Part shown: positions 5,702 through 64,000 of the stretch, in pieces
Layout of the letters: each line of letters begins with the position of its first letter
Position numbering within the stretch: the stretch's first letter is position 1
From: Ochromonas danica
Lineage: Eukaryota > Sar > Chrysophyceae > Chromulinales > Chromulinaceae
Assembly: GCA_015146655.1 (NCBI GenBank)
Contig: VKHL01000082.1
Coordinates: 61,413-125,412 of the forward strand
Length of the DNA stretch: 64,000 bases
Direction of reading: 5' to 3'
The notes under the pieces: generated by a model
The model's input: only the letters and a program-made list of their open reading frames with translations
Told to the model about the DNA's origin: nothing
The model's database searches: none
Program-made: the position numbers and the translations under genes

Positions 5702-6292
5702 CTGTTCAATACTGTACTACACATTGTGTGCTAGTCAATACTGTACTACACATTGTGTGCTAGTCAATACTGTACAACACATTGTGTGCTAGTCAATACT
5801 GTACAACACATTGTGTGCTAGTTAATACTGTACTGCACATTGTGTGCCAGTCAATACTGTACTACACATTGTGTGCTAGTCAATACTGTACTACACATTG
5901 TGTGCTAGTCAATACTGTACTACACATTGTGTGCTAGTCAATACTGTACAACACATTGTGTGCTAGTCAATACTGTACTACACATTGTGTGCTAGTCAAT
6001 ACTGTACTACACATTGTGTGCTAGTCAATACTGTACAACACATTGTGTGCTAGTCAATACTGTACTACACATTGTGTGCTAGTCAATACTGTACTACACA
6101 TTGTGTGCTAGTCAATACTGTACAACACATTGTGTGCTAGTCAATACTGTACTACACATTGTGTGCTAGTCAATACTGTACTACACATTGTGTGCTAGTC
6201 AATACTGTACAACACATTGTGTGCTAGTCAATACTGTACTACACATTGTGTGCTAGTCAATACTGTACTACACATTGTGTGCTAGTCAATAA
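5702..6292. repeat. 29-bp minisatellite, about 20 copies, with an 87-bp higher-order unit
   Basis: The monomer reads ctagtcaatactgtactaca + cattgtgtg (29 bp). Two main variants differ at one base (tactaca = T, tacaaca = A). From about copy 7 onward the order is T-T-A repeated to the end of the array, so the true period there is 87 bp. Copies at the left edge carry extra changes. It lies just after the 5126 gene, and perhaps inside its last intron. Confidence 0.95.
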
Positions 6293-16809: not shown

Positions 16810-18600
16810 ATGGTGTGTTCCTCGCTGCTTTTCGCGGTCGTCCTGGGCCTGCTTTACTCTTCTAGTCAAGGTTAGTGCATCCATGCCATGAATTGGTAGA
16901 GAGTTGCTTCACAGTGAAGGTTCTCTGTAGCGCTTCAACTGCACCATGCAAGTGCACGAGGTCTTCGCAGCGCCTCGTGGGGTCGGCAGAGGACGACCTC
17001 TCTCGGCACCACCGTGGTCGACCAGCAGGCCATCAAAGAGGCCCTTGGCATCACCGTCCACCCTCGGCGCTTCCTCAAGGCCACCAAGCAGGTCGCCACG
17101 GTGGGCCCCGCTTGCGCCACCTTCGAGCAGCTAGAGAAGCTCTTCCTCTCCGGCGCAGACGTCTTCCGCCTCAACTTTTCTCATGGAGAGCACTCTGAGA
17201 AGACGAAGTTTATCGAGCTCATCCGCGCCGTGGAGAGGAAGTACCGTCACCCCATCACCGTGCTGGCTGACCTGCAGGGCCCCAAGCTGCGCGTTGGTGT
17301 CTTCGAGAAAGACAGAGTCACTCTGAAGGAAGGGCAGAAGTTCTCCTTCGATCTGAGCAGCACTCCAGGCAGCGACCAGCGCGTGCAGCTGCCTCACCCC
17401 GAGATCCTGCACACCCTCCGCGCTGGAGACGTGCTGCTGCTGGACGACGGCAAGCTGCGCATGAAAGTGCTCGACACCACCATGAACCTCGAGGTGCACG
17501 AGAATGCTGCGGAGGGATCAGTCCTCTGCGAGGTGGTGGTGGGCGGCGTGCTGTCCAACAAGAAGGGCGTCAACACTCCCTCCATCATCCTGCCCATCTC
17601 GCCACTCACGCCCAAAGACCGCGCCGACTTGTCATTCATCCTCACCCAGGATGTGGACTGGGTCGCCTTGTCCTTCGTGCAGAGGCCAGAGGACATGCGC
17701 GAGTTCCGCGAGCTGGCCGGCGGGCGAGTGAAGCTGATGGCCAAGCTGGAGAAACCCTCCGCCCTGCGCTATCTGGACGAGATCGTCGACCTGTCCGACG
17801 GAGTTATGGTGGCGCGCGGAGATCTTGGCGTGGAGATGCCCCCCTGGGAGGTGCCCGTGCTGCAGCGGCGCATCGTGGAGACGTGCAAACACCTCGCCAA
17901 GCCCGTCATCGTGGCCACGCAGATGATGGAGAGCATGATCGAGAGTCCTTCTTGCACGCGCGCCGAGGCGTCAGACTGCGCCACTGCCATCTACGAGTCC
18001 TCCGACGCCGTCATGCTCTCCGCGGAGAGCGCCGTGGGTAAGTACCCCGTGGAGAGCGTGACCATGCAGCAGAACGTCATCAACTTCGTGGAGACCGACG
18101 ACGTCTTCCGCCTCTCCCTGGACCGCTTCGCCAGCGAGGTGGACGTGTTGTGCGCGAAGGACTCCACGACGACGGCCATCACTCTGGCGGCGAGGCAGGT
18201 GGCGGACATCTCCAAGAGCAAGGCCATCGTGGCCTTCACCTCCTCCGGCGGCACGGCCTTGCGCATGGCCAAGCTGAGGCCCAAAGTGCCCATCGTGGCG
18301 GTGTGCCAAGATGAGCGCATCGCCAGGCAGCTCGCGTTGGTCTGGGGCGTCTACCCGGTGGTGGTGGAGAGACACCAGGGAGAGTTCGTGGTGGCGAGAG
18401 AGATCGAGAAGATCTGCAACATCCTGGCGGACAAGGGCTTCTCGGACAGAGCCAAGGACAGCTTCACGGTGACTGCGGGACTGCCCTGGGGCATGCCAGG
18501 CACCACGAATATCATTCGCGTCTGCTCGGCGGCAGGGCCCAACCATTGGCTGGACCAAGAGACAGGACAGCTCACTGAGTTCCCCATCTCAGACTCCTAG
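16810..18600 (+). CDS. PYK: Pyruvate kinase, plastid-targeted
   Basis: Two exons (16810-16870, 16931-18600) give 576 aa. Exon 1 codes for a signal peptide (MVCSSLLFAVVLGLLYSSSQ). Exon 2 starts with a basic, Ser/Arg-rich transit-like stretch before the enzyme (about residue 50 on). It converts phosphoenolpyruvate and ADP to pyruvate and ATP. Visible motifs are TKQVATVGPA, FRLNFSHG, LADLQGPKLRVG, AKLEK (catalytic Lys near 290), MVARGDLGVEMP (about 312-323), ATQMMESM, TRAEASDCATAIYESSDAVMLS and the C-terminal allosteric domain. The first exon is easy to miss, and leaving it out would wrongly make this a cytosolic enzyme. The coding region is markedly GC-rich. Confidence 0.92.
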
Positions 18601-29522: not shown

Positions 29523-32500
29523 TTATTTCGCAGATGGGATGCTGTTTCCTTCCAGGATGAGCGAGCTGGATTCTTCCAACAAACTGTCCATCTGTGATAG
29601 AGAACTTCCTTGCGCGCTAAAGAGTGAAGCCTCTGGCAGCTGACTGCTGCTGCCATTGACGAGCAGCTCAGGAATGATAACATCCACTGGCACTGCCAGG
29701 AAGAGCTTGGCAGAGCCATTGGCAATGTAGACCTCCGAGTTGGGAGCAACCACAGTGCCCAAACGGAAAGCGCAACGAGTGAGGATCTTTCCGGAGGGAA
29801 CGGAACGTCCAAAGCTCTTCGCGCCCTGCAGATAGGTTGCTTTGAAATCTTGCTCAGAAAGCGGTCCCGCGGCATAAATCCATTGGCCCTGAGAACGACA
29901 AGACAAGCAACACAATCAGAGTCAGTAAGACATGACAAGGCTTGTCGTGTTCCCAGCAAAGCGAGCGACTCACATCTTTGAGCACAAAATAGTAAATGGA
30001 GCCATTCGGTCCGAGGTACCAGCCCGTCTCTCCTAATAAATCACAAAACACGATCGAGTTAGAACAGACGCATTGGCAAAAGCTGCAGGCAGCTGTGGTC
30101 CAACCTTGCAAAGTATTCTCCATGGCGACGAGAACGCCCGTGTCATCTGCAAGTCGAGTCAACTTCAAGCGCTTCACTCTCTTCCGTGCAAGAAAGCCTC
30201 GAATGATGCTCGTCAACCGTATCAATCCACCGCGATGAGATTCTTTCACAAGCTGAGCCTTCTCAAGGAAGCCATGAAGAGCATCGCCTTTGTACTTTTC
30301 CTTGTAGAGAGCCAGTTCATTCCGAATAGCATCGAGTCCAAGCAGAGCCTGGCTGTACTCCTCCACGGCTAGCCGTTGCGACGAGAGTTGTGTTTGGAGA
30401 TCATTCACCTTCGCTTCCAATGTGGAGATGTAGGCATCACGTTCGACCAGGTCACTAAGCAAGGTATCAATTTGCAGACGCGTTGCTTGGATTGCCAGTC
30501 GATCAATGACGACGGGGCGCTTCTTGTCCGCCTCTGCTCCCATAGCAGTGCGATAATTCGCACAAGCCTGGTCGTGCATGAGAGTGGAAAGTGGTCCGCA
30601 GAGGAGAAGGAAGTCTTTATCATCCAGACAGAAGTAGAACAGTTGTCCGTCCGTGCTGTACCAGCCCGTTGATCCTTGTTTTGTGTCTCCATGAGCAAGC
30701 AAGATTCCTTGCTGAACGGCCAAATTCTCCGTGAGGAGTCGACGAACTTTCTGGCGACCCAAGAAACCTCGTGCAAGGCTCTGCACACGGACGGCTTGCT
30801 CGTCTGACACAGACTTCTTCTCACCTTCCTTTCCTTGAGCAACTTCTACCTCAGCCTTTGCCTCCACCTCCTCTGCTCCCCCTCCTCCTGGACTTGCTTC
30901 GTTCTCTTGCTCTTTCTCCTCACCTCCCTCTACTCGCTCCTCCACACTTGATATGCTAGACACGATCTTGGCCAATACATCTGACACCACATCTTCTTCT
31001 CTCTCTCCTCCCCCTTCCTCTTCTTTGTCTTCCTCTTCACCCTTTGACTCTTCTCCCAACAACCGCTTCGTCTTCTGCCGACCCAAGAAGCCACGCGCCA
31101 GAGATTGCATTTGCACCGCAGCCTTCTCTACCTCTCCTTCCTTTTGCCCCGCTTCACCAACGCCTTCATTCTGCATGTTGGCAGCAACATTGCCCTCTCT
31201 TGCAGCTTCTCCCTCACTCTCAATTCTCCCCACCATGGCTGACACCACCTCAGATACCACCTCCTCAGCCGAGGAAGCAACAGCTTCTTCTCCACTTCCC
31301 TCTCGTGGATGGTCAACATCATCTCCATTGCCACTCTGCCCACCCGAAGTCACCACAGCCTCCTCTGTTACCATTGCGACTGCCTCGGTGACATTTTCTG
31401 CATTTTCCACCTCTGTCTTTGCCTCCACCTCCACCCCATCTGCTCCTCCTCCTGGACTTGCTTCGTTCTCTTGCTCTTTCTCCTCACCTCCCTCTACTCG
31501 CTCCTCCACACTTGATATGCTAGACACGATCTTGGCCAATACATCTGACACCACATCTTCTTCTCTCTCTCCTCCCCCTTCCTCTTCTTTGTCTTCCTCT
31601 TCACCCTTTGACTCTTCTCCCAACAACCGCTTCGTCTTCTGCCGACCCAAGAAGCCACGCGCCAGAGATTGCATTTGTACCGCAGCCTTCTCTACCTCTC
31701 CTTCCGTTTGCTCCTCATTCACAGTTTGATCTGCCTTACCCTCAACTTCCTGGTGCTCAAGTTGCTCAGGTGGACGTTCTGTGGGTAGAGAGGTTTCGTT
31801 TCCTTCTACTTTGGATACGATTGCTCGCATTACCTCTGCCACTTTGTCCTCATCAGAAAGTGGCACAGACTCGTTAGGAACGGCAATTGTCACCGAGGCT
31901 TCCAGTTTACTCTCTCCCTCTCCAATATTATCGTGAACGACAGCATCAGCATTAGGTGACTGAGATTCAGTTGACTTCTCTGCCTTTGCCTCCACCTCCA
32001 CCCCATCTGCTCCTCCTCCTGGACTTGCTTCGTTCTCTTGCTCTTTCTCCTCACCTCCCTCTACTCGCTCCTCCACACTTGATATGCTAGACACGATCTT
32101 GGCCAATACATCTGACACCACATCTTCTTCTCTCTCTCCTCCCCCTTCCTCTTCTTTGTCTTCCTCTTCACCCTTTGACTCTTCTCCCAACAACCGCTTC
32201 GTCTTCTGCCGACCCAAGAAGCCACGCGCCAGAGATTGCATTTGCACCGCAGCCTTCTCTACCTCTCCTTCCTTTTGCCCCGCTTCACCAACGCCTTCAT
32301 TCTGCATGTTGGCAGCAACATTGCCCTCTCTTGCAGCTTCTCCCTCACTCTCAATTCTCCCCACCATGGCTGACACCACCTCAGATACCACCTCCTCAGC
32401 CGAGGAAGCAACAGCTTCTTCTCCACTTCCCTCTCGTGGATGGTCAACATCATCTCCATTGCCACTCTGCCCACCCGAAGTCACCACAGCCTCCTCTGTT

Positions 32501-34899
32501 ACCATTGCGACTGCCTCGGTGACATTTTCTGCATTTTCCACCTCTGTCTTTGCCTCCACCTCCACCCCATCTGCTCCTCCTCCTGGACTTGCTTCGTTCT
32601 CTTGCTCTTTCTCCTCACCTCCCTCTACTCGCTCCTCCACACTTGATATGCTAGACACGATCTTGGCCAATACATCTGACACCACATCTTCTTCTCTCTC
32701 TCCTCCCCCTTCCTCTTCTTTGTCTTCCTCTTCACCCTTTGACTCTTCTCCCAACAACCGCTTCGTCTTCTGCCGACCCAAGAAGCCACGCGCCAGAGAT
32801 TGCATTTGTACCGCAGCCTTCTCTACCTCTCCTTCCTTTTGCTCCTCATTAACAGTTTGGTGTTCTTCGGCATTTTGCACTTGCTGCTCTTGTCGAGGTG
32901 ATGACGATCTGTTGTGTTGTGCCACGTCGTCTCTTACTGCAGAGGCCGTTGTCGACCGCTTAGCAAGTGTTTCGAGGCTTGGCACAATCTTGAGAGGCAT
33001 TGTAGCCAGCCCTGAAGAAATGCTTTTCATCGCAACGTCTCTGGCCAGCAGCAGGTTAGGCGCAACTTCTTCCTCCACCACCTGCTCCTTCTGCTCCTCA
33101 TTACCTGCTCGATCTGATTCGAGCTGCACAATTTCAACAACCTGCTCTGAATTTTGCTCTTCTTTTTCTTCCTCAACGTGGAGATCAGAAGCCTCATTGA
33201 CCTCATCTTCTTGCAAAGGAGGCACGGTTAGCACTCCCACACTCTTTCTGCGGGAACGCGCAGCGACTTCTTGTGCTTCTGCTAGAAGCAATTGACAGTC
33301 CTGCAGCGCCTTTTCGCACATAACTTTCTCCCGCTGCACCTCCTGCAATTCTTCTAACAGCTGCTTTTGCACTGCTCTTTCCTGTTCCAGTTGCTGGCAG
33401 ATTTCTTTCTGCTGGTCCAGCAAGACCGTCTGCTCTTGCTCGAGCTCTCTCTGGCGGCTGAGCAAAGTCACTTGTTCCTGCTCAAGTTGCTGGAGGAGTT
33501 CTTTCTGTTCATTCAGCAGAGCATTTTGTCCCTCGTTGATCTGCTGTTTTTCGCGCATTGCTTCATTCAGTGCGAGTGAGAGTTCCGTTAGGCGAGTCAT
33601 CGAAAATGCGCTGAGGTCATCCAATTCTGTCCTCATTTCCGTCCAACCGCGATGCGCTTGTTGGACTTCTTCACGCAGTTTGAGCACGAGGTCGAAGCGT
33701 TCTTGTGAGATCTGCTGGGTATTTTGCAAAAGGCTCTGACAGGCCATTAACGAGGCATGCATGTCAGTATTAGCTTGCAATGCCACCCGTAGATCCTCTT
33801 TCGTCTCCTCTGCTATTTGTTCTGCCTCGCTCATCCGGCGCTGAGCGATTTCTATCAAACCAGCCTGTGCGGCGTCAACACTTGTCTGATGGGCCAAATA
33901 GTGGATCGCCTCTTGGGCAAAATCTCTCTTCAATTTTTCTATTTCTGCTTCTGCTTCTTGCCGAAGAACACTTTCTTGCTGAAGCAATTGCAACTCGTCG
34001 CGCAAACCTGCGATGACGGTCTCTTGAGAGGAGCGCAGGGCTTGCAGCTCCACTTGTGCCGCTTGCAGTGCATTCTCTGTTCCTTGCAGCTTCTTCTCAG
34101 TGTCTTCTCGAGAAGCAGTCTGAGCAGACAGTTCGGATTTCGTTTCTTGTAGAGTATGAGAAAGATCTTCTTTCTCTCTCTCTAATTGTTCGATTGTGTC
34201 TTTGGCTGAGCCCAGCTCATCCTGAGAAGACTCCAGCAAGGACTGAGTGTCCGCGAGAGAAGTCTCCAAGGAGCGGATTTCCCTCTTGAGGACAGCTAAG
34301 CGCTCTTGTTGTACCTCGATATCTTTGCTTCGCAGCAGTTGCGCCACAGTGGCCTGGAGAAGGAGAAGGCATTGCTGCAGATCTTTCTGGAAGCCTGCCA
34401 ACGTCCGCCAGATCTCGCTCTTCATGACCTTAAGCTCATCGCGGAAATGATGCATGGGATGGTGATAGAAGAAGAAGTTAAAGACCTTGTTCTTCCGCAC
34501 CATCTCGTCGAGGGAGGGTTGGGAGGGCAGGAGGGACCAGGCGGCCGCCTCGCGACTCTCTCGCGCCGCATCCAGCACAGGCCCCCACTCTTCCAGATCT
34601 ATCATATTCGCTGGAAGAGTCGCAGCCGTCTGACGAATGAACTCCTCCAGCCCATCAGCGCGGGTGAGGGAGATGGTCGCGTGAAGCAAGGAGGCCAGAG
34701 CTGCATAGACTTGGCCAGCTCTCTGGCCGTGGACCTTCACGTAGAGGTTTGTGGAAGCACTATTGCGCATCTCCTTGCCCTTCATCGTGGCGATCTCGTA
34801 AGAATCTTTCAGTTTGCGAAGGTTGTCGGGATTGACGTCATGGCGCAGGCGCAGCCCTTTCTGCTTCTGACTCACGCCACCATAACGATTTCCTTCCAT
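29523..34899 (-). CDS. Repetitive IQ-motif/coiled-coil protein
   Basis: Three exons (34899-30105, 30032-29974, 29888-29523) give 1739 aa; reading through without splicing would give a false C-terminus. The N-terminal ~180 residues are helical and globular (LYVKVHGQRAGQVYAALASL). Residues ~190-620 form a long coiled coil rich in Gln/Glu. A central acidic region has four near-identical IQ modules (VQMQSLARGFLGRQKTKRLL) plus a fifth, variant one (VRVQSLARGFLGRQKVRRLL). A sixth IQ-like site (IIRGFLARKRVKRL) is near the end. Two copies of a ~45-aa domain (TGWYSTDGQLFYFCLDD / TGWYLGPNGSIYYFVLKD … GPLS) each follow an IQ site. IQ motifs bind calmodulin, so a Ca2+-linked scaffold is likely. The family is not recognised. 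Confidence 0.85.
30850..32860. repeat. Nested direct duplication inside the IQ protein gene
   Basis: The anchor word gatatgctagacacg occurs at 30950, 31514, 32081 and 32645 (steps 564, 567, 564), so four short units A are present. Between the first pair and between the last pair lies the same B block (EAVVTSGGQSGNG…), giving a 1131-bp higher-order period. The two A-B-A blocks (about 30950-31700 and 32081-32831) are identical or nearly so. The middle spacer C (about 31725-31980) is unique. Confidence 0.9.
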
Positions 34900-46849: not shown

Positions 46850-49800
46850 TTAGTGCGCAGATTCCCTCAACATTTCCGCAAAGACTGATTGAGGATTCGT
46901 CAAGAGCTCCTTGGGATCACCGTACTCCAGAACCTGACCAGATCCTAAAACCAAGATTCTATCGAAATCGGCGATGGTTTGCAGCCTGTGAGCGATGGCC
47001 AACACGGTCGCCCCTTTCTGCTCCACTTCCTCGCGAAGAACTTTCTGGATAAGTTCGTCAGTGTAGGGATCGACTGCGCTAGTGCCCTCATCAACCACAA
47101 GAATCTTCGCCCGCCGCAGCAAAGCTCGTGCAATGCACAGCAGCTGTCTTTGCCCTTGACTCAAGTTCTCCCCGTTCTCTTTCACTTGATCTTGCAAGCC
47201 TTTGGGAAGAGCACGAATCATGTCGGCCAAGCAGACTTGCTCTAAAACCTTCCAAACCTCTTCGTCGGAGTAATAATCAAACGGATCCAGTTGAAATCGA
47301 ATGGTGCCAGTGAACAAGACAGGATCTTGCGGAATAATAGCCAAGGCAGATCGCAGTCGAGTTAATGGAATGGTCGCAATATCTCGTCCGTCAATCAGAA
47401 TTCTGCCGCCTGTGATCTCCACAATGCGAAACAGCGCCATCATCACGCTTGACTGCAATACAAAGCATCATTATTGGCATCATGAAGCAGTGGTTGTAGG
47501 AATGCGATGTGAATCACTTACCTTGCCCGCTCCTGTGCGGCCGCAGACGCCAATGCGTTGACCGCTTTGAATGTCGACATTCAATCCTCTTAGGACGGGA
47601 GGATTGTCTCGATATTGCATCCAAACGTCTTCGATCTTGATACTTCCTTTTTGAGGCCACAAAGGATCAACAGCTTCGTCGACTTTCTCCATCCCATCAT
47701 CAGCTTTAACTATTGTGTTCATTTCTTGTGGAATCGTCAGATATTCCAGCACTCTGTCTGTGCTGGTCATGTAGTTGATCACCTCGATGATCAGCTGGAC
47801 GCATCGTTGAAACAAAGCTGTCAGCTGCAAACCGTAGGAGAGAGCCAAGCCCAAGGCGATTGGAGACACCGTGTCTCGTAAGCAGACGCAAATCAAGGCG
47901 ATAACCAGCAAGACCGTGGCCGTCGACAGCTCCAGTCTCACAGTCATCCAACTCATACAAATCCATTGGTGAAACAACAATTTCTTGTTGGTATCCATGC
48001 GCCTTCGATGAGCCATCAGAAAGCGAGAAGTATCGCCAAATGCGCGAATCGTTTCGAGGCCTGCCAACGTCTCTGACAAAGAAGAATAGATTGGCGACCG
48101 AGATACCGCTTCCAGTCGCTTCAGGTCTCGCGAAGCTGAGGAGAAAAAGACATAAACTTTGTAGAAAAGAAGACCCATGGGAGCCAGTAAGATGGCGAAC
48201 CACGGAGACGCCCAAATACACAATCCGAAGACCGCGAAAACTTGAAACCAATTCACAATCAACTGCAAAAGGAACTCCGGAACATTCGAATCAACTGTTT
48301 CCATGTCTTTGGCGAATCGATTCAAGATAGCTCCAATGGTGTGAGTGTCGAAGAAAAGCGGAACGGGCGCCGCCAAAACCTTTCGGAGGATTTGCGCGTG
48401 CAAGACTCGGCTGGAGCGGACTGTGAAGAAGTTGAAGTAGACGGACCGCACAAGCGCGGAAAATATAAGAAGACCAAAGGAAGAGTAATACCATCTCTCG
48501 TAGTAATGCCGGGTGCGAAGGCCGTCATCCCAATAGGTGGCAACCTTAGCGAGAAGCAAGTCCACGGCAATGCGGAATAGCTGAGAGCCAGCGAAGACCA
48601 AGAACATGGACAGGATCATGAGGAAGCCCAGGAAGTAGAGCCAAGGCGTGTAAATGCTCTCGTTCGACTCTTTCTGCGAGATCGCATGCGAGCGATACAA
48701 AGGCGCCTCGAGAATCTTCGGAAGAGAGACCAAGGAGGCGGTGAAGTACTTGAGGAACGACATGGACAGACTGATTCCCGTGTCCGCCTTTTCCACTTTA
48801 ATCAACTTCCCGCCTTCGACCTTGACTGCAAGGGATGCTATTTCCTCCACTTTCTTCGGCTCTTGTCCTTGACCACTCAATAGAGCGATCGAGACCTCCG
48901 ACACTTCTGGCGTTGGTTCGATGCTGATTTCAGCCGAGTAGCGCTCCTCATCGCCAATTGTCTCCAGTTCGCTTTCATCGACGGCAGCAGAGTCTTCAGG
49001 CAATAACGCCACATCCTCTTCACTGACAGCTTTGCTTTCTTCTGCAAGACTTTTGCTTCCCTTTAAAGTTGGAGACAAGCCTGTGATCTTCGCCATGAGC
49101 TCTGAGTGATTAGTGAAGAGGTACTCAAAGGACCCATCGAGGACAATCCTTCCCTCATCAAGCACGATGATGCGATCGAACCGCCTCAGCAGATGCATGT
49201 GCGAGTTGAGCGCGATGATGCGCAACTTGTCTTGCAGCAAATCCAAGACGCCGTGCTGGAAGATATGGTTCCCTGTGTTTCCGTCAACAGCCGAGAAAGG
49301 GTCATCAAGGAGATAAATCTGTGAGCGGTAACGAGAGAAGAACGCTCTCGCCAAGGAGACGCGCGCCTTCTGCCCTCCAGACAAATTGATTCCTCTCTCT
49401 CCAATCTCCGTCTCGTCGCCATGGGATAGAATAGCGATATCGGAAGTCAAGGCTGCAGCTTGAATTGCGCGGCGATAATCTGATTCCTGTTGCATTGACA
49501 ATTCCTTCGCAGGAATCTCAAACAACACGTTCTGCTTCAGAGTTAAGTTTTGAATCCAAGGGGTTTGCGCACAGTATGCGATGGTGCCAACAGCATCTCT
49601 CTTTCCTCGAACAAGAGTCATCTCATTGAGAAAAGCCGAGAGCAAGGAGCTCTTACCGCAGCCGACTTGTCCCACGAGGGCGATCAACTCGTTGCCTTGC
49701 GCTTTGAACTGGATATTCCGCAAGGAAAACGTCTTTGACAAGAGCTCGTCAAGCTCATTGCTTTCAATATCAGCATGGCCATCATGGACGTGATCTTTTC

Positions 49801-51070
49801 TGGACGAACGCACGACTTGCAAGTCTTCCCAGCTGTAGGTCGCGTCCTCGAGAGTTATGCCGGGCAGTGGCGCCAAACATTTATTACCGTCTGACTCATG
49901 CAGGACGGGCAAACAAAAGAACGCATCCAAACGCTGAATGGAAACGAGTGCGTCATTGGCTGCTTTCAATCCCTGCGACAGAAGGTTGAAAGGGAATCGA
50001 GTGATATTCAAGAACGCCAGCATGCGGAAGATCTGCACGACAGACATGGGCTTATCGGCTCCGTAGAAAGCAGTCGCGAACATGATGATGGCAGCAACAG
50101 GCTGAGCGGCAAAGAGCACCTCTCTTAAATACCCTACCAGGTCGAGGTAAGCGTGCAATCTAGTCGTCTCCTTCTCGCGCACTTCTCGGATTCTCTCTTC
50201 TATCGCAGCCTCCCAAGCATACAGTTTGACGACGCGGATGGACTGCAGCAGCTCGTTAATGAGCTTCACTCGCTCGTCAGTCGAGCGCACCATCGCTCTT
50301 CTGTTCACGCCGATGAGAGCGGCGATGTGATTCTGCAGAGGCACCAGAACGCAAATGAAAGCCATGCCAGCCAAGGCAGCTTGGTATCCAATCTGAGTGA
50401 TGAGGATGATCATGACAACCACACAAACCAGCGGGCCGTGCCAGAGGTAATGGAAGAACTGCACGGCGAGGTTCAGCTTCTCCACGTCGATGGCGATCAA
50501 GTTCGTCGTCTGGCCGATCGTGTTCTTCAACCTCGCCGCCGTCGTGAGCTTCAGCGATTGTTCGTAGACAGCCATCATGACTCCAGCGCGCACTGCATCG
50601 CCCAGTCTTCTGAGCAGGTCGAAGACTCGACTGAGCAGCAGCGAGGAGCCGAAGGCCAAGGCGCCGAAGCCGATCGCGAAGCCAACCCCCCGGCCTATCC
50701 CACCTTCCCCGTTCTGGATGTAGCTGACAATCTCAGCAACCAGGAAAGGCTGACCCAGCTGCAGAAGGAAAAAGCCCAGCTGCATGATGCCCGCGACGAG
50801 GAGGCGATCGCCGAAGGCCGCGAAGAGCGCGAAGACGAAGGACGGTCTCCTCGCCGCCTCCTCGGCACGCTTGACCTCCTCCTGCCAGGCTTTCCAGAAA
50901 TTGCTGGTGTGATACTCCACAGTCTCGTGGCTGGGGCAGTCCCAAACGTCCGCTGGAGTCAGCGCGCGCTTGTTGGCCAACTCGATTAACGGATTTATCC
51001 ATCTGAGAAGGATGTCGAAGCAAGCTTTCGACTCAGGATGAGCTTGACCACCAACACGATTCGGATCCAT
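46850..51070 (-). CDS. ABCC (MRP-type) ABC transporter
   Basis: Two exons (51070-47522, 47452-46850) give 1383 aa. The frame is open 24 nt further, but ATG 51070 is the first methionine. Layout is TMD1-NBD1-TMD2-NBD2 without an extra TMD0, as in short MRPs. NBD1: Walker A GQVGCGKSS (about 470), signature LSGGQ, Walker B IYLLDDPFSAVD. NBD2: Walker A GRTGAGKSS split by the intron, signature LSQGQ, Walker B ILVVDEGTSAVD with the catalytic Glu. NBD1 has Asp at that place, the usual asymmetry of ABCC proteins, so NBD1 is the degenerate site. It probably exports organic anions or glutathione conjugates. The middle of this gene (49260-50261) recurs inverted at 62999-64000. Confidence 0.94.
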
Positions 51071-51344
51071 GGCCAAGACAAGGCAACCGCCCAATTTCGA
51101 TCAATTGATGGAATTTGGAATAATGGCTCAATTCCTGCCACTCCCTGCCCGGTAGTGAGCAACTTCTTAAGTTAACATCTTAACTGGGCAACTTCTTAAC
51201 CATTCCAGATCTCTAAATATCTATATCTCCAGATCTTTAGATTTCCAGATATCCAGACTGGACTGTAACGCCTTTGCCTGCATGCCCAATTTGATTGAAA
51301 TTCCTTCCATGTGGATCGTCGAGAGTGGGCCTGGAAGCTAAGCC
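51071..51344. promoter_or_regulatory. Divergent promoter ABCC / SFI1-like
   Basis: A 274-bp gap between divergent start codons. It holds cttaagttaac (51166-51176), the same core word seen upstream of CEP44 and NSE4, and repeats of atatc/ccagat (51208-51262). Confidence 0.4.
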
Positions 51345-54300
51345 ATGGACGAGAAGAAAGCCTTGACAACATTTCCTCGGATTTACAACTCGGCCGATGT
51401 GGTCATTCCGTCAGTGCCGAGGTGGGAGGATTCCTCGCTGGGCAGCGCCTCTCTGCGCACCGCCACGGCCTTGACATCGGTAGGCACCCCCCCCTGAGCC
51501 CTTCGCCTCTCTAACGAACTATTCTCAGAATCTAAAGGCTGATCAAGGCGGTGGCGGCAGCAGCAAAGGTGTCTATGCCAACGGAGCCTTGAGAGTGAAT
51601 CGCAAGGGCAAAGTCGTCTTAAGTCTCTTCGCGGACAACCCGATGGGGAGGAGCCTGCTGCCTTCTTCTTCCATGAGAACTCTCACTGACATCCTCCCCC
51701 CCTTGCCTCGCGTTGTCTCTCCGCAAATGGCCATCCATCGATCCTCCGGCGACCTCTCCGTCTCCGTGGCCAGCCAAGACGAAGCCGCCGACCCGCAGCC
51801 GCGCCTGCCAGCCAAGAAATACGCGCTTCGAGAGTCAATGGACTCTCTATGGGGCGGGAAGAGCGACACAATAGAGGCGCGCGAAGAGATCATGAGGTCG
51901 GAGCTGCAGGCCTTGGCGGAGGAACAAGAGCGCCGCCAACAAGCCATGCTGGAGGAACTCGAGCACCAACGAATGATGGCTGAGGCCCAGAATGAGGCAG
52001 AGTTCGCCAATGACTATGCCCGCGACTTCGACTATCGCCGCAGATTCCAAGGCCGCGGGCTGGGCAGCGAGGACTCGGAGGACAGCGGATTCGTCATCGG
52101 CTTGCAGGATTCTCTCACTCGGCTGGCAGCGAGCAAAGCGCGAGAGAAGCTCAGGAATCTGGCGATGTTTATCAACGGTCACACCAACAGAAAGATCCTC
52201 TCGTGCTGGAACATGATCGAGAGCCGCTTCAAGCAGTCGTCGGTGTTCAAGGTGGTCATGGTCACAGACTCGCAGGGCTTGCAGCATCCCATTCGACACA
52301 ACGCGCTCACTATCAGTGCGCTAGCCCGCATCTTGTGCTCATCTAGAGTGCGTCTAAGCCATGGAGAGCTGGCAGTGCTGCTAGATCGCGTGGAAATCGC
52401 GGAGAAAGATGTGCGGCTCGGCCTGCGCATTGCCGCCCTCAATGTAGTCATTCAGGTTTGCGCTGAGGCTGGATCAAACCAAGCAGCGACTTACCGCGAG
52501 CAGATGCTTGAGCTTCTGAAGAAGGAACACGCTTTAGTTAGCATCACGGAGTTGCGAGACGTCGTCTTTTCTTTGGACCCCATGGAGCGACTGCAGCAGG
52601 AAGAGGAAATTGCTGCCCGCAAGCAGGTCGAGGTGGCAGCTATGCTGGCAGAAAAGCGTAAAAAGGACGACTTCAAGCTAAAGCAAGAGCTCAGCCGCAA
52701 GAAGTTGATCGACGACTTCGAGAAGGTTTTGGACCAGCCGCAGCTGATGAAAAGAGTTTTCAATCGCATCTGCGCGGAGAACTTTCTCTTTGTAGTCGAT
52801 TTCGCGCGCACCACGGTCGCGAATTACTTCGACGAGCTTTCATCGAATGTTTCGCCAGACCTCGTCTTCTTCCTGGGCGTGGAGCATTTCCCTGAAGCCA
52901 TTCAAGATCGACTCAACGCGAAGATGAAGAGTCATCACAAAGACACGCACCCGAAGTTTCTCGACGTAGGAATGCTACGGCCGACTTCCCGAGGCAGTTC
53001 TTCTCGAAGCATGTTGACCTCGGACAGGGAGAGCGGTCCCTTCGGCGGTCACGCTTCTTCTCCTCCCAGCCTCAGTCGGTCTGAGAGCCAGCAGATATTT
53101 ATTGGAGCAGATGCCTCTCCACCCCCAAAGGAGAGGCCTGAATACGCTAGTATATTGTTCGACTATGAGGACTTCTCTGACATGCGCGTGGAGTCAGTGA
53201 CCAAGACCAAACTGGCCGGCAATCCAAGTGTTCTTGCTAGTCTTCGAGCCCTTGTCACGCTTGGAAAGACTTTTCCGCGTTTCTCCTTCCGCGACATGGT
53301 CGAAGTTCTGCATTTCATCGCAACATCGAAGATCAGTGCATATTTCCGCGGGTATCGCAAGCGCTGGAGGTATTCGGTGGCGCGGTTAAAGTGGAGGCGC
53401 ATCTTCCGCGGTCTGCGCGTCAAGTACTTCCGAGCGTGGGCAAGCATCGTCATACAGAGGCAGATCCTTCGTCGCTATTGCTTTCGAAAGGTCGTGGCGT
53501 GGTTCCACTACACTCAGCGCATGAAGGAGAGGCGAGAAGTCTTTCGGCTCTGCTTCTGGCCTTTCTTCGTGTGGCGGAAGTTCTCCAACGCGAGCGCTAC
53601 AGCGAGAGAAAAGGCGAAGTTCTTGACCACCCGCGTCTTGCCTACCCTAGCCACAATTCAGGTGTTTAACGCTTGGAAATCCTACAGCATGAAGGAGGTG
53701 CGAATGCGTCAGCTTTCTACAAACTTTCTTAAAGCCATGACAAGCAATCAATGCCATGCAAGTTTACTATTTTGGAAAAGTTGGGCGCATCAGCGACGAT
53801 TGATTCGCCAGGCTTGGCATCGCGCCGCCAAAGAGATGCGAAGGAAGATTTTGAGGCGGCTTACGCGCAGTCGATTCTTCATTTGGAGGATCTTCGTCTG
53901 GTATCGAAGAGAGATGAGACGACGTGTGGGAGAACTTTTCTATCATTTTCGCGAGACTTTAATGCCCAGAGCGAAGGTTTGGAAGAAGCTGAGCTACACG
54001 GAGAAGCGAATTTCCAGGAGCTTGAAAAGACGAAGTATGGATCAGAACCGCGTGACTGGCTCCTCGAAACGTTCTCGCAAAACAAAGAAGAGCACGTCTC
54101 AGGCGGAGTCTGGGGCTCGCAAGGACAGCGTCTCCAGCCAGGTCTCGCAGCGAAGTCAGAGTTCGCGACGATCTAGTCGTTCACGTGCGCAGGAAAATGA
54201 TGACGCCTCTGTAGCAAGCACCTTTTCTGTGGTTCTGTTTGACCCTTCGTTCAGATGGAAGTGCGATTTCAAGGCGTGGCTGGATGTGGACAGTGACGGA

Positions 54301-57300
54301 GAAGATGGCGAGGACGTGCCAGACTTGCTGATGGAGACTTATACCCATTCTAACCTCGCGCCTTTTCCCTCTTCAATCGACTTTCTGCCTTTCCTCCCCA
54401 TTTCAACCACGGAGAGCTGGGTGCTTCAGAGGCTGGCGAGCACTGCTGAGGGCTGGCGTTATCGGGAACTGTGGAACCTGTTGGATGCCGCCCTGCGCTT
54501 TCACCGTTATGCCTTTTTGGCTTTTAAAAATCTGCGCTTGTATGCATTAGTGAAGTCCAGAGTGAAGAAGTTTTGCAGAAAGCGGAGGATGCGCGCCCTG
54601 CGAGTTGTTTGGCTCACTTGGAAGGCTTACACATCTGCTGGGGGAGGCCCTCTGAGAAGTGGCAGTGCCGCCCCCAGCGAGGGCGAGATACTCTACTATC
54701 AAGTTCGCACACACATGAGTAGTAAACTGCTTCGAACAAGAAAGCTGGTGGAGGAGGTTAGCAAGCATTACAATCGCGAGGCAGAAAGTGACGACGAAGA
54801 AGAGGAAGAAAAGGTGTCGAGGCAAATGAGGAATCTCAATCTTCTGTCGGAAGAGAACGATGACGACTACTCTTACATTGAAGAGGAAAAGAAGAGAGCT
54901 AAGGAGCGAGCTTTGGAGTTGAAGCGGAGGAAAGAAAAGGCTGCTCTTCTCTATGGATCCTTCCAGCCTCCCAACCTTCTCGATCTGGACGAGAAAGATC
55001 GCATCCGCGAGTTGGCCATGGCCAAGAATATGCTGAAATACTCTGCCAACTTGAAAGTCTCTCTAAACGCTGCAGCCGCACAAGCACAGGTGCAACATGA
55101 TGACGCAGTGGCCAGGCGATTGCTCGTGAAGCAGATGGTACAAGAAGTGTTGGATGCAGAGAGTGGAGTGACCGACCGTGCTGTAAACAAGCAACAAGAA
55201 TATGCTTCCAAGTTCAAAGAACACGCAGCTAAGCATCTTCTCGACGTCTTGGCCAAAATCTACGAGGAAGTGCAAAAGAAACTCATCCAAGAGGAATCAA
55301 AGATCTATTTCCGCGCAATGCGCATGCCATTGCTCATCACACGGTCTAAGAAGATGCTCGCAAGGAAGAAGCTCAAGAATTATATCCGCTTGTGCAATCG
55401 ATTGCGAAGCTTGAATGAAAAGGCACCCTTTTATCACAAAATGCGCACTTTGTGGATAATCTTCAAACGCTGGACGCGTTTTATGTGCACGACCAAACTC
55501 TACGGCACGCCTGGCTTCAAGGCAATCGTCGATAGGAAGCTCCTGCTTCATCCAGATTTTCATAATCATCTTAAGCAAAGAGGATTTCTGGGTGCTTCAT
55601 ATTGCGACGATAAGACTCTCCAAAGCGCATTGTCTGACTTTCGTGTCCTTTTCAGTCGCTGGAAAACGTACACACAGGAGAAGGTCATGTTTCGCATTCT
55701 ATCCGATAAAGTGATCAAGGTGTTCAAGATGAAGCTGCTGCGTAAGTGTCTGTGGGCTCTGCGCACGGGTTTGAAGATTCAAGACTTCCGCCATCAAACA
55801 AATCAGGAACCCGCAAGCTTCCCTATCACGCGGATCTCGGCAGATATTGATCAGCTTGCCAAACGATTCTTGCCCTTGCGCAAGTATCAATTACCTAACG
55901 CTATCCAAAAGCGCAATCGAATGGTGATTCGCAGGATTAAAAACCTGGCTCTTGCTACCGAGACCTTCAAGTCCTTTCTCAACATCTTTATCGGCCAGAT
56001 CTCGTTGCGAATCAACACAGAACAGCGACTTCTACATGAAGCCTTTGAAGCGCGCGGAAGCCAAGATTTCGTGGATGTTGCGGCACCTCGAAAAGACGAC
56101 CCCATTGTGCCGCCTATTATGACCAAACTTGAAGGACGAACTTTCTTCGACCCGCAGCATCCAAATACCGTTATCCCTGCTGGATTCCGCTTGACTCGCG
56201 TTAAATGGGCCTTACAAAATACTGCAGCGGCAACTGTGGGCAATAAAGACAATGGATCGACCACGTCAATCATTCTGCTTGGCTGGCAACTCTATTGGAG
56301 TGCTGATGGCACTGCAGAGATCGAGTCGCCCCCTCGAGGCCAATGGCACAACGCAGGCTTCTCAATCCAGGAGACGGTGATTCCAAAGGAGGATTTCGTC
56401 ATTGGAGTGGAATATCTGTATGACGGTCCCACAATCGTGGGCATCAGGTTGAAGCTCTTCCATGGTGGATATACCAAATGGATTGGAGGCAAAACGTCTC
56501 TCTCCACGCTTTCAGTTCTTCTCAGTGCGGATAATGAAGCTATCTCGCCGAAGTTGCCATTTGAAGAGAATCGGCTGCTCGATCGAGATGAAGAAGCGCT
56601 GCCAGCTCTGCCATACCGAATGGTGATCGGATTCTCCGGGTTGTTACACAATAATCGCACAACTAATATTGGGCTCATTGTTCGCAAAATTCACAAGCAG
56701 AATATTTTCAGCTACTTCTGGATACAAGACGTTTTGGAGCGTGAGGCGGCCAAGCCTTCGAGTAGCGATCACCAGTCCTCTCTAGATCACAGCAGCGGCT
56801 TGCCAGGCGATGAAAGTTTAACTCTAGACAGCAGCACATCACAGCTGGACAATAATGGCCAAGTTGTTGCTGGGGAGAGTTCCAATGAACACGAGATTGG
56901 CGAGGAGATAGGTGAAGAAGACCAAGAGGGGGAAGATGTGGAGGACGAGGAGCAAGAAGAAGAGGAAGAAGAAGAAGATGGAGATGAAGCAAAGTCACAT
57001 CGAGATGGCGAAGAAGGAAGTAAAGATGGTAAAGACGGTGCCTCTGATCGAGATAAAACAGCTCAGCGGTCAGAAGCATCTCCGAGTGCCAGTGAGCGAC
57101 GGAACCAACGCATGTTGATACCTCGCATTGCACGCAAATTTGCGCGCTGGATGGAACAAGACGAAATGGTCGCGGAGACTCTCACTTCGTCAGAAAAGCA
57201 ATTCTTTGACATCTTGCGTATGCGGATGACAGAGTTAAGCAGCGCGAAGACCCGTGCTGACGAATTTGCTCGACGAGTTTGGACAAGTCGTGACGTTCGC

Positions 57301-58218
57301 AGCCATCCCACTTTGGCCAAGCTTGTCAACTTGCGCATAGTTGCACAACTCACGAGATGGTTCTTCAATGCAATCAGTCGACGACTCATTCCTTTTTGTA
57401 GCACGGAAAAGAGTGGACTGTACCTTTTCAAATTGAGTCGAAAGATGGAGAGCAAAGCGAAGATTTTCCAACGAAGAGCACGCAACAATCTCTTGCAAGC
57501 ACATAATTTAGAAACTTCTCGTCACAGTTGGGATGGCAAACCGGTGCTTGGACCCCAAGAGCGAACAGCTAAGCGCCAACTATTCCTCCAAGTAGCTGAG
57601 TTACGAGCAAATGCTTCAAAGCTTGAGAAAGAAGCCGAGCAAATAATGACCCAAGCAAAAGAAAATGAAGAAAAAGGCTTGCTCCTTCTGCCGCGAATCT
57701 CATTAAACTCTACTGTCTACAGCAACTTCAAAACAAAAATCGCGGCGGCGAGACATAAAGAAAGCCTTCTGGAACGAATGAGTTTGGATCAAATCAAGAA
57801 TGGCCTCTTTGGAAGCAACATGAAGGAGACTCTGCTCAACAAAGACCAAATGCAAGCTATTCACGCATCTTTGCGCGAACGAGTTGTTGCTGCTAAGGAC
57901 TCGACCAGTTTGCAACGACTTTTGGATGATGTTCTCGTAACAGAACGCATTTTGGCCGATAAAGACAAACAAGAGAAAAGGAAACAACAGATTCGACACA
58001 AAGTGGATCAATCGACCAAGCTTGGGCATTCCACTTTTCAAGCACGGCATAAAGGAATTGATCTTGCGACTGCAAAGCGTGCGATGAGCAGTAGTGAGGA
58101 TTTGTCAGCACTATCCAAAGCCAAAGCCTCTGCTCCTTCTCAAGGCAGAGTCAGGAAGCGAGTTCAACCAGGAGACAATGCGGTTAACTTCATGCCTACC
58201 TTGTCTTACAATAGATGA
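51345..58218 (+). CDS. SFI1-like giant centrin-binding-type protein
   Basis: Two exons (51345-51479, 51529-58218) give 2274 aa. Residues ~120-350 are helical. From ~600 there are irregular repeats in which a Trp ends a helix every 23-40 residues (FRAWASIVIQRQILRR, VWRKFSNASA, VFNAWKSYSMKE, FWKSWAHQRRL, VWLTWKAYTS, LFSRWKTYTQE, FKRWTRF). This is the pattern of Sfi1 centrin-binding repeats, so a basal-body/centriole fibre protein is inferred. Residues ~1530-1700 hold a separate beta-rich domain (ILLGWQLYWSADGTAEI, TIVGIRLKLFHGG) that loosely recalls lectin or jacalin sandwiches. An acidic stretch (EEDQEGEDVEDEEQEEE) and a charged helical end follow. An upstream exon carries the true ATG. Confidence 0.75.
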
Positions 58219-58886
58219 TGACTTCTTGTGTATGGTGTATGTTCTTATCGTGCAGATCATAAATATGTATGTAAATTTAATGATAACCGCTGTGGTAAAG
58301 AGCAAGAGCAAGAGGCAAGTCCAGGAGGAGGAGCAGATGAGGTGGAGGCAAAGGCAGAGGTGGAATGTTCACCAGCTCCAGCCGAAGCAGGGTCACTGAC
58401 TGCACACATCATATCATGTACAGAGTGTGCTTTTTTGACAACAGGCGCTCTGACCGCTGAAATGCCAGATTGGAAGGCGCGTTCAATACTGGCAAAGGTT
58501 ATCTAAGCAGCCTGTGATAATAGTCAGAACAATAAGACCGAATAATAAAAAGAGCATACCATAAACTTTCAGCGACTGGGACTGATCTATGTGCTCGCTA
58601 TGGGGAAAAGGGCTGAAGACTGGCTGACGTTGTTTAATCAACACTTGTATTAAGTTACTTACAGTAGGTGGGGTCGTGTATTTATTGAAAACAAGGATTC
58701 GACATGTTGGTTGGAGTTGGTAAGCATTTGAGTACTTGTGTGGAATCCATTCACTAATTTTCAACATGCTGTTGCGTGATGAAGTCCACACTACTCCTGA
58801 TATTGTTTCTTCTTTACATTCTCCGCAAGAAATGGGAAGAGCTGGGAGTATTTTATACTCGAATCGAACTTCAAAGCGCATAGTAT
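58219..58886. other. Convergent intergenic with a stray IQ-gene fragment
   Basis: This lies between the SFI1-like and HECT stop codons. It contains a 69-bp fragment related to the IQ protein gene at 58297-58365. The remainder shows no gene. Confidence 0.55.
58297..58365 (+). pseudogene. Fragment of the IQ-gene repeat unit
   Basis: The DNA reads aaagagcaagag…caagtccaggaggaggag…aggtggaggcaaaggcag. It codes for EASPGGGAD-EVEAKAEVE in one frame, matching the repeat of the 29523-34899 gene (EASPGGGADGVEVEAKAEV). Against that unit it has about three substitutions in the first 29 bp and a 6-bp deletion. No start, splice or flanking gene match is seen, so it is a transposed or copied scrap. Confidence 0.75.
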
Positions 58887-61800
58887 TCATGAAAGGTCAA
58901 AACCGGCACGGGAAGTGATGGCAGCGACCAGCCGTTCTCGTAGAACTTTCCGCGAAGAGTATGCAGGCAATTTAAGCAAGTTGAAACACGTGGATGCTGT
59001 CGGCAAGCGACCCTCTTCACCCTGGCAATCCACTCGCTGTATCGTAAAGGGTGGTCGCAGACCTCCAAAGCCAAGATTGGGTGGACGTGGGCAAGCTGTA
59101 ACAAAGCGTAGCAATAGCGCTCGCTCCTCTTCCGTCAATTCCTCCTGTACTATTGCCCAAAATCGACTAATCTGCGGATCGCCAGGCAAATAGCCCACAT
59201 AGGATGTGTTTGCGCGTAAGTCAGTCACATCAATCGCCGTTTCCGCTCCAGAAATAATGACTTGAAGTTCAGGAGTGCAAAACCAAGAGAAGACTTGCTG
59301 CGACTGGTTCATTACTTCATAGAAGCCCCTGTTCAAAACATAAGTCAGCCATGTGAAATCAGCGCAATGCAGTCAACGACAGCTTACCGCACAAAGGCTC
59401 TTGACTGAGCAGCAATACGATCATACAAATAATATTTGGCCACCAGATTAATATAGCGGAAACGATTGTGCAGTGTGACGGCCATATTCGCCCCTCCAGG
59501 CAATAGCTCCACATCTTTTCGTGCCTCCTTCTTCCTTGAATCTTCCACAATCTTGTGAATATCCCCCCCCTCGTCCTCAAACTCCTCCGTAACACTAAAA
59601 GTAAGACCCAAATCTTCAACTTGCGACTCATCTTGTGCATCCTTAAGATAGCGCAGACCCCGAGCAAGTTGTGGATCCAATGATGCCAACTCAGCAACAG
59701 GGTTCGCGAGATGAAAATCGCGAGTCTGTCGAAGGGACGAAAGAAAGAAAGAGGCAAACTGAAGATCCAAAGAGATATCTTCGATTAACGCCTTGGCCAG
59801 TAAACGACCCGCAAACAGATAAAGCTCTTCCACAAGGTCATTGTCGCCATGGAAAGAGCGCTGTCGGAATGCAGCTGGATGGGGGTAGATCAAGCCCTCG
59901 GTAGTGGAAGCAAAAAGTCCACGCGCAGAGCCAAAAATCTCTTGAACGGCGAGCACGATCCACTCTTTAAACAGACCTCCAGAATCTATACCTATCTCTT
60001 CACCTCCTTCGACGTTAATGAAGCGAATCATGAAGCGTTCACGCCACATCCGGCCGGTCATTTTCGAAGATGATAACGCAAAGAGACTATCTTCCAATAG
60101 GCGACTACGTCGAATGACCAATATCTTGCTGGCTGGACGATTTCTCGCAGGGCGATCATTATCTAATATACGGCGAAGAAGCAAGAGGCGGGAGTGGAAA
60201 GGAATGGAGAACGATAAGTGTGTCAGCATCATTGTCACTTTAGAAGAAACTTGAGACGATAAAGATGGATCTGCGAGTCCTAATAACTCCTTTTGGAAAC
60301 TAGCAGAAGAGCAACATGTGAGTGTGAATAGAGATGGTTGACTGAAAGGCCTCCTCGACCACCTCGAATAGCAATCACCTACAACGGTTTGCAACGTGCG
60401 AACTAAGCAGGCCGCCAGAAAGTCGGAGTCAATTCTATTGGTGGAGCTTTGATGGTAATGAAGGGACTGGGCGACCTCGAAGAGTGTTGGCATCTCTGCG
60501 AGGATGCGGCCCAGCATTTCCCGACAAAGTCGGAGGAGTTGGAGAAGCAGAGGTAGATGTAAGGGAAGCCGATCATCTTCACTGACCAAAAGCTGTACTG
60601 ATAAGGTGATCAGAAACAAATATAGATAGGTAAAAGAGACCGAATATGTCTGCTGATCAGCTTGAACACCAACAGAAAGGAGGCCGACAAGGTGCTCTTT
60701 GGGATCAAAGACCTTTATCATGCCATCTAAACCTCCTCTTTTTACTTCTCTCTCGAGGAGACAGAGCAAAAGATATGAAGGGAGAGAAGTGGAGAAGGTG
60801 AAGGCAATGAGAGCCTGCCAAGGACGTCCGCCGTGCACTGCTGCACCAGAATGAGCAGCGGCTGCAAACAATACCAGCCAAAGAGCTATCGCAGCTTCTG
60901 TCAAACCGTCCTGCTGAACAGTTGGTAAAACCATTTGTTCGAGAGTGGCCGCCTGGTTTGCAAGAGAATGAGAAGAGGAAGATATGCTTTTCTTCTTGCC
61001 TTTGAGCGACGAGAAATTTGTCCATAACCCGCGCAGCCCAGCCATTAGGTACCCAGTGAGCGACTCTTGTTCTGCTTGTTTGACTCGTTGATGTTTCAAG
61101 GCTTGTTGTACCATTTGTAAAGCTGAAGCATGTGTAATCGCTTCGCGCACCTCCTCTTGATCTGCAGGGAGTTCCCAGCGTTGCCACGCCTCCTCTGCGA
61201 CATTGAACTCTCTGCGAGCTATTCCACGACCTGCTGCGATCTCCATCAAGTAAACTATCAAGGAAAAACGATAAAGGCCTTGATGCGCTTGACAAGCTAG
61301 TGCTGCGGGCACTGCACTGGCTGTGAAACAAGCGCCTTGCGTCTGCCAAAGCACTCCTTCACTTCCACTGAGCAAGCCAGGAACAGGATAGCTCATTAAC
61401 AAAGAAGTAATCAGCTGTAACAGAGATTTTATCTTGTCCCTATCTGGGGACTGATTTCGCTCCACCAACAAAACCATAAACTGACAAAGATTGCCCAACA
61501 GCCAGTGGCCCGCAAACAGACCATTGCCCATTTCCAGGCCCAGTATTTGATCACAACTCCACGGTAAACTTGGTAAATCACCGCTTATACCTTCGAGAGA
61601 GGCCGCCAGCCCTGGTATGGTCCATAGCCGACAGTACTCTACAGAAGAGATGACCTTGTGTCGCACCAGAGCACACACCAATTGCCAAACGGCTCCAACT
61701 CCCGTGGAGTGCAAAGACCTCAGCTGCGCAAAGTTATTCACCTCTTTAAGGAGCTTAATCTTCGACCCTATCTCAGAGAAATGCTCATAGATAGCCCGAA

Positions 61801-62449
61801 ACAAGCCTCCTTCAACAAGAGCACGCGCCATTCCTGCAGACCCTTCATACATTCGAAGCAAAGTCCCAGCTAGGGACTCCACACTACCTCTTTCCAGTAG
61901 AGATGAGATATTGGTTAGCAGATAGAGCAGATAGGGGACAATAAGTGAAATCGGGAGGTCCTCGAGGAGGTTCTTCTGTGCGGAGGGTAACACAATGATC
62001 AACCAAAGTCGCTCGGCAACTGCTGCCTGGCTCAGTCGAGACAGCCGCTTCAACATCATAAAGGAGCGGAGAAGCGAGACACAAATCGCAGCTGGAGGGA
62101 CGAAAGGCTGCGTGACCCCCTGAGACCGCAGCAGTTGCCCAACTTTCTCCACGTCATCCAACTTCCTCTTCAAAGTGAGGGACAGAGAAGACAGAAATAG
62201 CCATCGTGCGCGATGGCCTCTCCAAAATGCTTGGAGCTTGGTGGCAACTGCAGCTTTTTCACGGAGTTCCTGGCGATGGAAACGTTCCTGTCGTGCCTTC
62301 TCGGCGATTTCTTCTCGCCCAGCTTTCACTTCTCCCTTGCTACCACCACCTCTCTTATTACCACTAGGAACGGCTGTACCGGAAGAAGTGGTCGAGGGTT
62401 GGCGCTTGGAGGAGGCTGGTTTTCTGAGGTCTTCCTTCGAGATGAACAT
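58887..62449 (-). CDS. HECT E3 ubiquitin ligase, UBE3B/UBE3C-like
   Basis: Two exons (62449-59388, 59328-58887) give 1167 aa. The N-terminus has the short IQ-type helix typical of UBE3B/C (ATKLQAFWRGHRARW). A long helical region follows. The HECT domain occupies roughly the last 390 residues, with IDSGGLFKEW, TTEGLIYPHPAA, FAGRLLAKALIED, LLRFVTACPRPPNLGF and the catalytic Cys (near 1135) in LPTASTCFNLLKLPAYSS. The C-terminus AGFDLS fits the conserved hydrophobic end. It forms a thioester with ubiquitin and transfers it to substrate; UBE3C/Hul5 relatives work at the proteasome. The 59-nt intron lies within the HECT N-lobe. Confidence 0.92.
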
Positions 62450-62998
62450 CCGTCAGACAAGAATCAGAATTGAAGAATGAACTCATTGCAGCTACTACTA
62501 GGGAAATACACATATTTCTAATGGAATTACACAAAACAGGAATCACTTCACACGAAACAAGAATCACTTCATATCATATGTGTTAATTTCTCGATACTGA
62601 TAGGGAATCTTTCTAATTCCTTTCACTTTACCTTTAAAAAGAACTCTGAGCCACTGTCATGCTATAGCGGAGGTTGGAGTGATCTTCGAATTAAAGACAG
62701 AGAGAAGCTGCAGGACGGACATTAATTAGTAGCCGCCCACCATTGGAGCCTGTTGGAAGAATCTTCAAGGAAATGAATTTATTATCTTAATAATATGAGG
62801 GAGTTAAGGGAACTATATCAGATGTTTGGAGATTTTCCAACAATAGCGACTAAGCCAAATCAATGAAACCACAACTACAGTACCACAACTAAAGTATCAC
62901 AAACTAACCCCAGAAGATGCTCTCGCCCCCTGAAAAGGGCCCAAGTTGCCTACATGACTTCCTAACTCTACTCCGTGAAGGTGGAGTGAATGCCACCC
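62450..62998. other. Intergenic, upstream of HECT gene, up to duplication edge
   Basis: No gene is seen. Short direct repeats occur at 62522-62575 (caggaatcacttcacac / caagaatcacttcatat) and near 62870-62903 (accacaacta). The edge of the inverted ABCC copy is at 62999. Confidence 0.5.
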
Positions 62999-64000
62999 CA
63001 TTAACGAGCTGCTGCAGTCCATCCGCGTCGTCAAACTGTATGCTTGGGAGGCTGCGATAGAAGAGAGAATCCGAGAAGTGCGCGAGAAGGAGACGACTAG
63101 ATTGCACGCTTACCTCGACCTGGTAGGGTATTTAAGAGAGGTGCTCTTTGCCGCTCAGCCTGTTGCTGCCATCATCATGTTCGCGACTGCTTTCTACGGA
63201 GCCGATAAGCCCATGTCTGTCGTGCAGATCTTCCGCATGCTGGCGTTCTTGAATATCACTCGATTCCCTTTCAACCTTCTGTCGCAGGGATTGAAAGCAG
63301 CCAATGACGCACTCGTTTCCATTCAGCGTTTGGATGCGTTCTTTTGTTTGCCCGTCCTGCATGAGTCAGACGGTAATAAATGTTTGGCGCCACTGCCCGG
63401 CATAACTCTCGAGGACGCGACCTACAGCTGGGAAGACTTGCAAGTCGTGCGTTCGTCCAGAAAAGATCACGTCCATGATGGCCATGCTGATATTGAAAGC
63501 AATGAGCTTGACGAGCTCTTGTCAAAGACGTTTTCCTTGCGGAATATCCAGTTCAAAGCGCAAGGCAACGAGTTGATCGCCCTCGTGGGACAAGTCGGCT
63601 GCGGTAAGAGCTCCTTGCTCTCGGCTTTTCTCAATGAGATGACTCTTGTTCGAGGAAAGAGAGATGCTGTTGGCACCATCGCATACTGTGCGCAAACCCC
63701 TTGGATTCAAAACTTAACTCTGAAGCAGAACGTGTTGTTTGAGATTCCTGCGAAGGAATTGTCAATGCAACAGGAATCAGATTATCGCCGCGCAATTCAA
63801 GCTGCAGCCTTGACTTCCGATATCGCTATTCTATCCCATGGCGACGAGACGGAGATTGGAGAGAGAGGAATCAATTTGTCTGGAGGGCAGAAGGCGCGCG
63901 TCTCCTTGGCGAGAGCGTTCTTCTCTCGTTACCGCTCACAGATTTATCTCCTTGATGACCCTTTCTCGGCTGTTGACGGAAACACAGGGAACCATATCTT
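62999..64000 (+). pseudogene. Truncated inverted copy of the ABCC transporter gene (runs off window)
   Basis: These 1002 bp are the reverse complement of 49260-50261 with no difference that I can find, including frame. They code for TMD1 loop residues (…LQSIRVVKLYAWEA…) through NBD1 Walker A, signature and Walker B. The copy begins abruptly inside a codon context that in the parent follows LINE; upstream DNA (62998 and before) is unrelated, with only the two bases ca shared at the joint. No start codon region or promoter is present, so as it stands it is a 5'-truncated gene. Its 3' extent lies beyond the window. Confidence 0.9.

Follow-up and report, generated by a model that had tools for sequence, protein, structure and literature searches.

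The window, by which we mean the whole stretch of 64,000 nucleotides from Ochromonas danica that was analysed (G000:C82:61413-125412), forms the terminal part of a contig of 125,412 bp (C82), and its base 64000 is the final base of that contig. In its last 17 kb, an ABCC transporter gene on the reverse strand is followed by two further genes and then by a second, incomplete ABCC segment in the opposite orientation, which runs into the contig end. The features of this region are as follows:

46850 to 51070, reverse strand: ABCC (MRP-type) transporter gene, apparently intact, with a large exon from the ATG at 51070 and a second exon
49260 to 50261, reverse strand: source segment within the ABCC gene, residues 278-612 of a 1204-aa ORF
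50262 to 62998: interval between the inverted copies, 12,737 bp
62998 to 62999: joint between unique sequence and the copy, with the geometry of one junction of a 50262-62998 inversion
62999 to 64000, forward strand: terminal copy, 333 open ABCC codons, cut by the contig end
64000: end of contig C82 (G000:C82:125412)

In the large ABCC ORF, Pfam domains were found for ABC_membrane (in two stretches) and ABC_tran, and the second exon, which carries most of the second nucleotide-binding domain, matched ABC_tran again; the short intron between the exons (approximately 47453-47521) was placed by eye from its GT..AG borders. With two transmembrane domains and two nucleotide-binding domains of the MRP type, the protein has the composition of an ABCC member, and its best solved relatives in the PDB are MRP4, MRP2, and MRP1. 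The interval between the inverted copies holds the 5' part of the ABCC gene, a 2209-aa ORF (51589-58218), a HECT gene, and an intergenic stretch. An earlier note on this DNA had named these genes as ABCC, SFI1-like, and HECT; Pfam confirmed the first and the third (the last HECT exon apparently lies at about 58.9-59.4 kb, judged by eye), and the SFI1-like label was not borne out, as Pfam gave no match for that ORF even at E≤10. Elsewhere in the window, a 1681-aa ORF with IQ motifs contains direct repeats (30841-32859), one of which is exact over 825 bp, and at 5706-6291 a 29-bp unit is repeated in tandem about 20 times, with 97% identity. The best solved relatives of a pyruvate kinase at 17014-18600 score far above the PKM entries; we take the top ones to be bacterial enzymes, the organism itself being eukaryotic.

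The inverted copy and its joint

In a sequence comparison within the window, the reverse complement of 49260-50261 matched 62999-64000 at 1002 of 1002 bases without a gap (333 of 333 residues at the protein level). This is a near-identical copy in opposite orientation, as a recent inverted segmental duplication would leave, and it bears out the inverted and identical copy of an ABCC segment that had been noticed before. The size of 1 kb given at that time is that of the part that is present, since the sequence stops with the contig and 1002 bp is only a lower limit; the left boundary of the duplicate is at 62998/62999, and its right boundary is beyond the contig end. Across the assembly to which the window belongs (31,187,593 bases in 337 contigs, from a eukaryote to judge by its genes and introns), a search located the segment at these two places only. 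Given the full identity and the two places, a chance origin of the pair is rejected, and a high-copy mobile element is unsupported by a repeat found at just two places in the assembly.

The copied part covers the last portion of the first transmembrane domain together with the first nucleotide-binding domain. Its reading frame stays open up to the contig end, and there is no in-frame ATG from the last upstream stop to the joint. Because it is devoid of a start codon and of the N-terminal 277 residues, the copied fragment would be expected, going by its sequence, to be non-functional as it stands.

Identity ends abruptly at the joint, and the flanks at this sole visible edge are unrelated. The bases directly before 62999 read GCCACCC at the junction as against GTGAAGCT at the source, with none in common at the edge itself. 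The 2-bp microhomology previously ascribed to the joint finds no support, as position 62998 is C whereas the aligned source base is T, and measuring a microhomology needs the original continuation past 62998, which is lost. A 7-base match (GAGTGAA) is found a short way upstream of the joint on both sides, with the register shifted. This match is weak evidence; when two 20-bp stretches were drawn at random 20,000 times, 241 draws shared a run of at least 7 bases, where draws less than 2 kb apart were skipped yet counted within the 20,000. For an RNA gene near the joint, Rfam gave no match at E≤0.1 in 62300-63100. About 325 bp upstream of the joint, at 62604-62673, lies an element some 70 bp long that is dispersed in the assembly, recurring at seven further places on other contigs (78-87% identity), and has no Rfam match; it may be what is left of a short mobile element.

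Contig ends and repeats in the assembly

The assembly looks like a short-read, k-mer-based one. Among the 47 contig ends that were inspected (27 + 20; one is the end of C82 and two are masked), four (C229, C68, C156, and C177) had been chosen on the strength of earlier search hits. At six of the 47 ends the contig begins or stops in a perfect microsatellite (71, 74, 76, 77, 79, and 82 bp), the 71-bp one continuing imperfectly. The first 77 bp at the start of C229 are common to the end of C81, after which the two diverge, and C156 has at least 77 but fewer than 100 initial bases in common with the end of C2. From these lengths we infer a k near 77 for the assembler, a value that is unproven because the terminal microsatellites are not all at least 77 bp long and because four ends (the end of C1 and the starts of C2, C10, and C150) reach longer imperfect low-complexity sequence. 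The start of C81 and the end of C68 (150,087 bp) stop within one exact 111-bp repeat, a further inverted copy of which (99%) lies 7.9 kb inside C81. The contigs are apparently sorted by length, the last and smallest one seen being 10,124 bp, and small partner contigs, of which none was seen, may have been filtered out of the assembly.

Where an exact repeat is too long for the library to span, a short-read assembly built from k-mers breaks off. In a comparison of 279,284 bases, with low-complexity repeats and seeds occurring more than five times left out, the 1002-bp repeat was the longest exact repeat found and it is terminal; the exact repeats inside contigs reach 825, 800, and 790 bp, which is as expected if longer repeats stop the assembler. 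The end of C82 resembles a contig end in an unresolved repeat of a k-mer assembly in that the contig includes the repeat and then stops, as do the start of C81 and the end of C68 at their 111 bp, and differs from it in that both copies are in one contig. In a pure k-mer graph, a path halts at 49260 only if the graph branches there, and such a branch would fit the second breakpoint of a discrete copy.

We then compare the C82 end with inverted repeats elsewhere. When six other contig ends were run against the whole assembly, an exact inverted copy of kilobase scale in the own contig was absent at all six, and weaker inverted matches within the same contig were present at three: the start of C81 (a 111-bp match at 99% that belongs to a dispersed family, plus one of 63 bp at 97%), the end of C50 (a match of about 940 bp at 77% with additional pieces, roughly 160 kb away), and the end of C2 (140 bp at 72%, on itself). 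The first 1000 bp of C81 carry a dispersed repeat family of about 110 bp along with neighbouring segments, found in both orientations across several contigs (C72, C68, C11, and C81). A coding-like stretch at the end of C50 contains tandem repeats, and arrays related to them occur on C138, C302, C180, and further contigs.

For 15 contigs, the first 10 kb were also compared with one another and each with itself, taking alignments of more than 100 bp. Inverted repeats within a contig appeared at the start of C81 (the 111 bp at 99%), in C83 (a pair of 1165 bp at 96.4%), and in C337 (a pair of 253 bp at 98.8%), so near-identical local inverted duplications occur inside contigs too. The second of these consists of two genes that are dienelactone-hydrolase-like (by eye):

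C83, 1818-2977 and 3189-4349, opposite orientations: inverted gene pair with 96.4% identity overall, a 790-bp block free of differences, and ends that have diverged

This pair looks like the result of gene conversion between inverted arms.

Origin of the terminal copy

The position of the copy at a contig end leaves two live readings, a recent duplication and a misassembly, and a polymorphic inversion comes third. The earlier note had listed these without a choice, together with ongoing gene conversion, for which there is no need: the flanks at the visible edge are unrelated, whereas the C83 pair has diverged ends that can still be aligned. We slightly favour a real duplication over a false join or a polymorphic inversion. 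The reading we tentatively put first, at a probability a little short of even, is that of a real and recent inverted duplication, truncated at its 5' end, where the assembly came to a stop. The exact pair, the short-read-like contig ends, and the other near-identical local duplications inside contigs count for it. The locus has in common with local inverted segmental duplications an exact copy in opposite orientation, in the same chromosome region, with a sharp joint; it differs in that one boundary is visible here and the other lies past the contig end. What counts against a duplication is that no contig was found to continue the copy at its far side: none besides C82 matched 48600-50900 in the whole-assembly search, an absence for which the dropping of small contigs could account. 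On this reading, a local inverted duplication would have placed a second, 5'-truncated ABCC segment of at least 1002 bp 12.7 kb away, in reverse, beside the HECT gene, and either template switching during replication or end joining may have been the mechanism. As the copies are still identical, the short-read assembler would have entered the second copy and halted there, leaving a joint that is physically real and a contig stop caused by the repeat.

Zero differences and the coincidence with the contig end are, nevertheless, also what a false join would give. It is quite possible that 1002 bp of the ABCC gene were attached in reverse to a true contig end at 62998, either via a chimeric template, a wrong graph step, or gap filling. 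The extension of the copy up to the last base of the contig and the lack of a following contig in our searches point the same way. If the DNA had been amplified with phi29, a displaced 3' end could have re-primed on the nearby opposite strand; in one study (PMC1855051), 406 of 475 phi29 chimeras were inverted, 337 of these spanning less than 10 kb and 69 more than 10 kb, which makes inverted local joins the commonest type of chimera there. Like those chimeras, the C82 end has two segments joined in inverted orientation with the interval skipped; most of those chimeras, however, span less than 10 kb, and the 12,737 bp here would fall into the rarer class (69 of the 406). Moreover, there is no sign that this DNA was amplified, and with one contig as long as 660 kb, a single-cell source is unlikely. 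A general contig-end fault of the assembly finds no support, as none of the six other ends searched carries an exact inverted copy of kilobase scale, and this too tells against a false join.

A polymorphic inversion, in which the 12,737-bp segment 50262-62998 would exist in both orientations (in two haplotypes or in a mixed culture), is in our estimate unlikely. The joint would then correspond to the inverted form's left junction as seen on the other strand, with the contig having walked between the two forms, and the ABCC gene would be broken in the inverted form. The join of 62998 (forward) to 50261 (reverse) has exactly the matching geometry, but the contig that would be expected to start with one interval end was not found among the stretches tested (62450-62998, 48600-50900, and 50262-52600), although small contigs may be missing. 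Save for the dispersed element (about 70 bp), no other contig matched the interval ends at 50262-52600 or 62450-62998.

An old inverted repeat held identical by gene conversion between its arms is very improbable. The C83 pair, with a 790-bp exact block in a longer diverged alignment, has the pattern expected of conversion, whereas at the C82 joint identity stops abruptly against unrelated flanks, with no diverged margin on the one side open to view. The description of the interval between the copies as foldback-capable stands as far as geometry goes, and no sign was seen that the interval acts; that real inverted arms let the 12.7 kb flip, so that cells of a eukaryote would carry an invertible nuclear switch turning the ABCC gene from intact to broken or re-joined and back, is scarcely credible, with geometry as its whole backing.

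Contig ends gather both unresolved real repeats and false joins, which calls for caution, and the terminal copy should be omitted from ABCC gene counts and inverted-repeat studies of this assembly until it is confirmed by reads. The recent inverted duplication, if real, would be an ordinary local duplication, and the pair is ordinary under either reading, duplication or assembly error.
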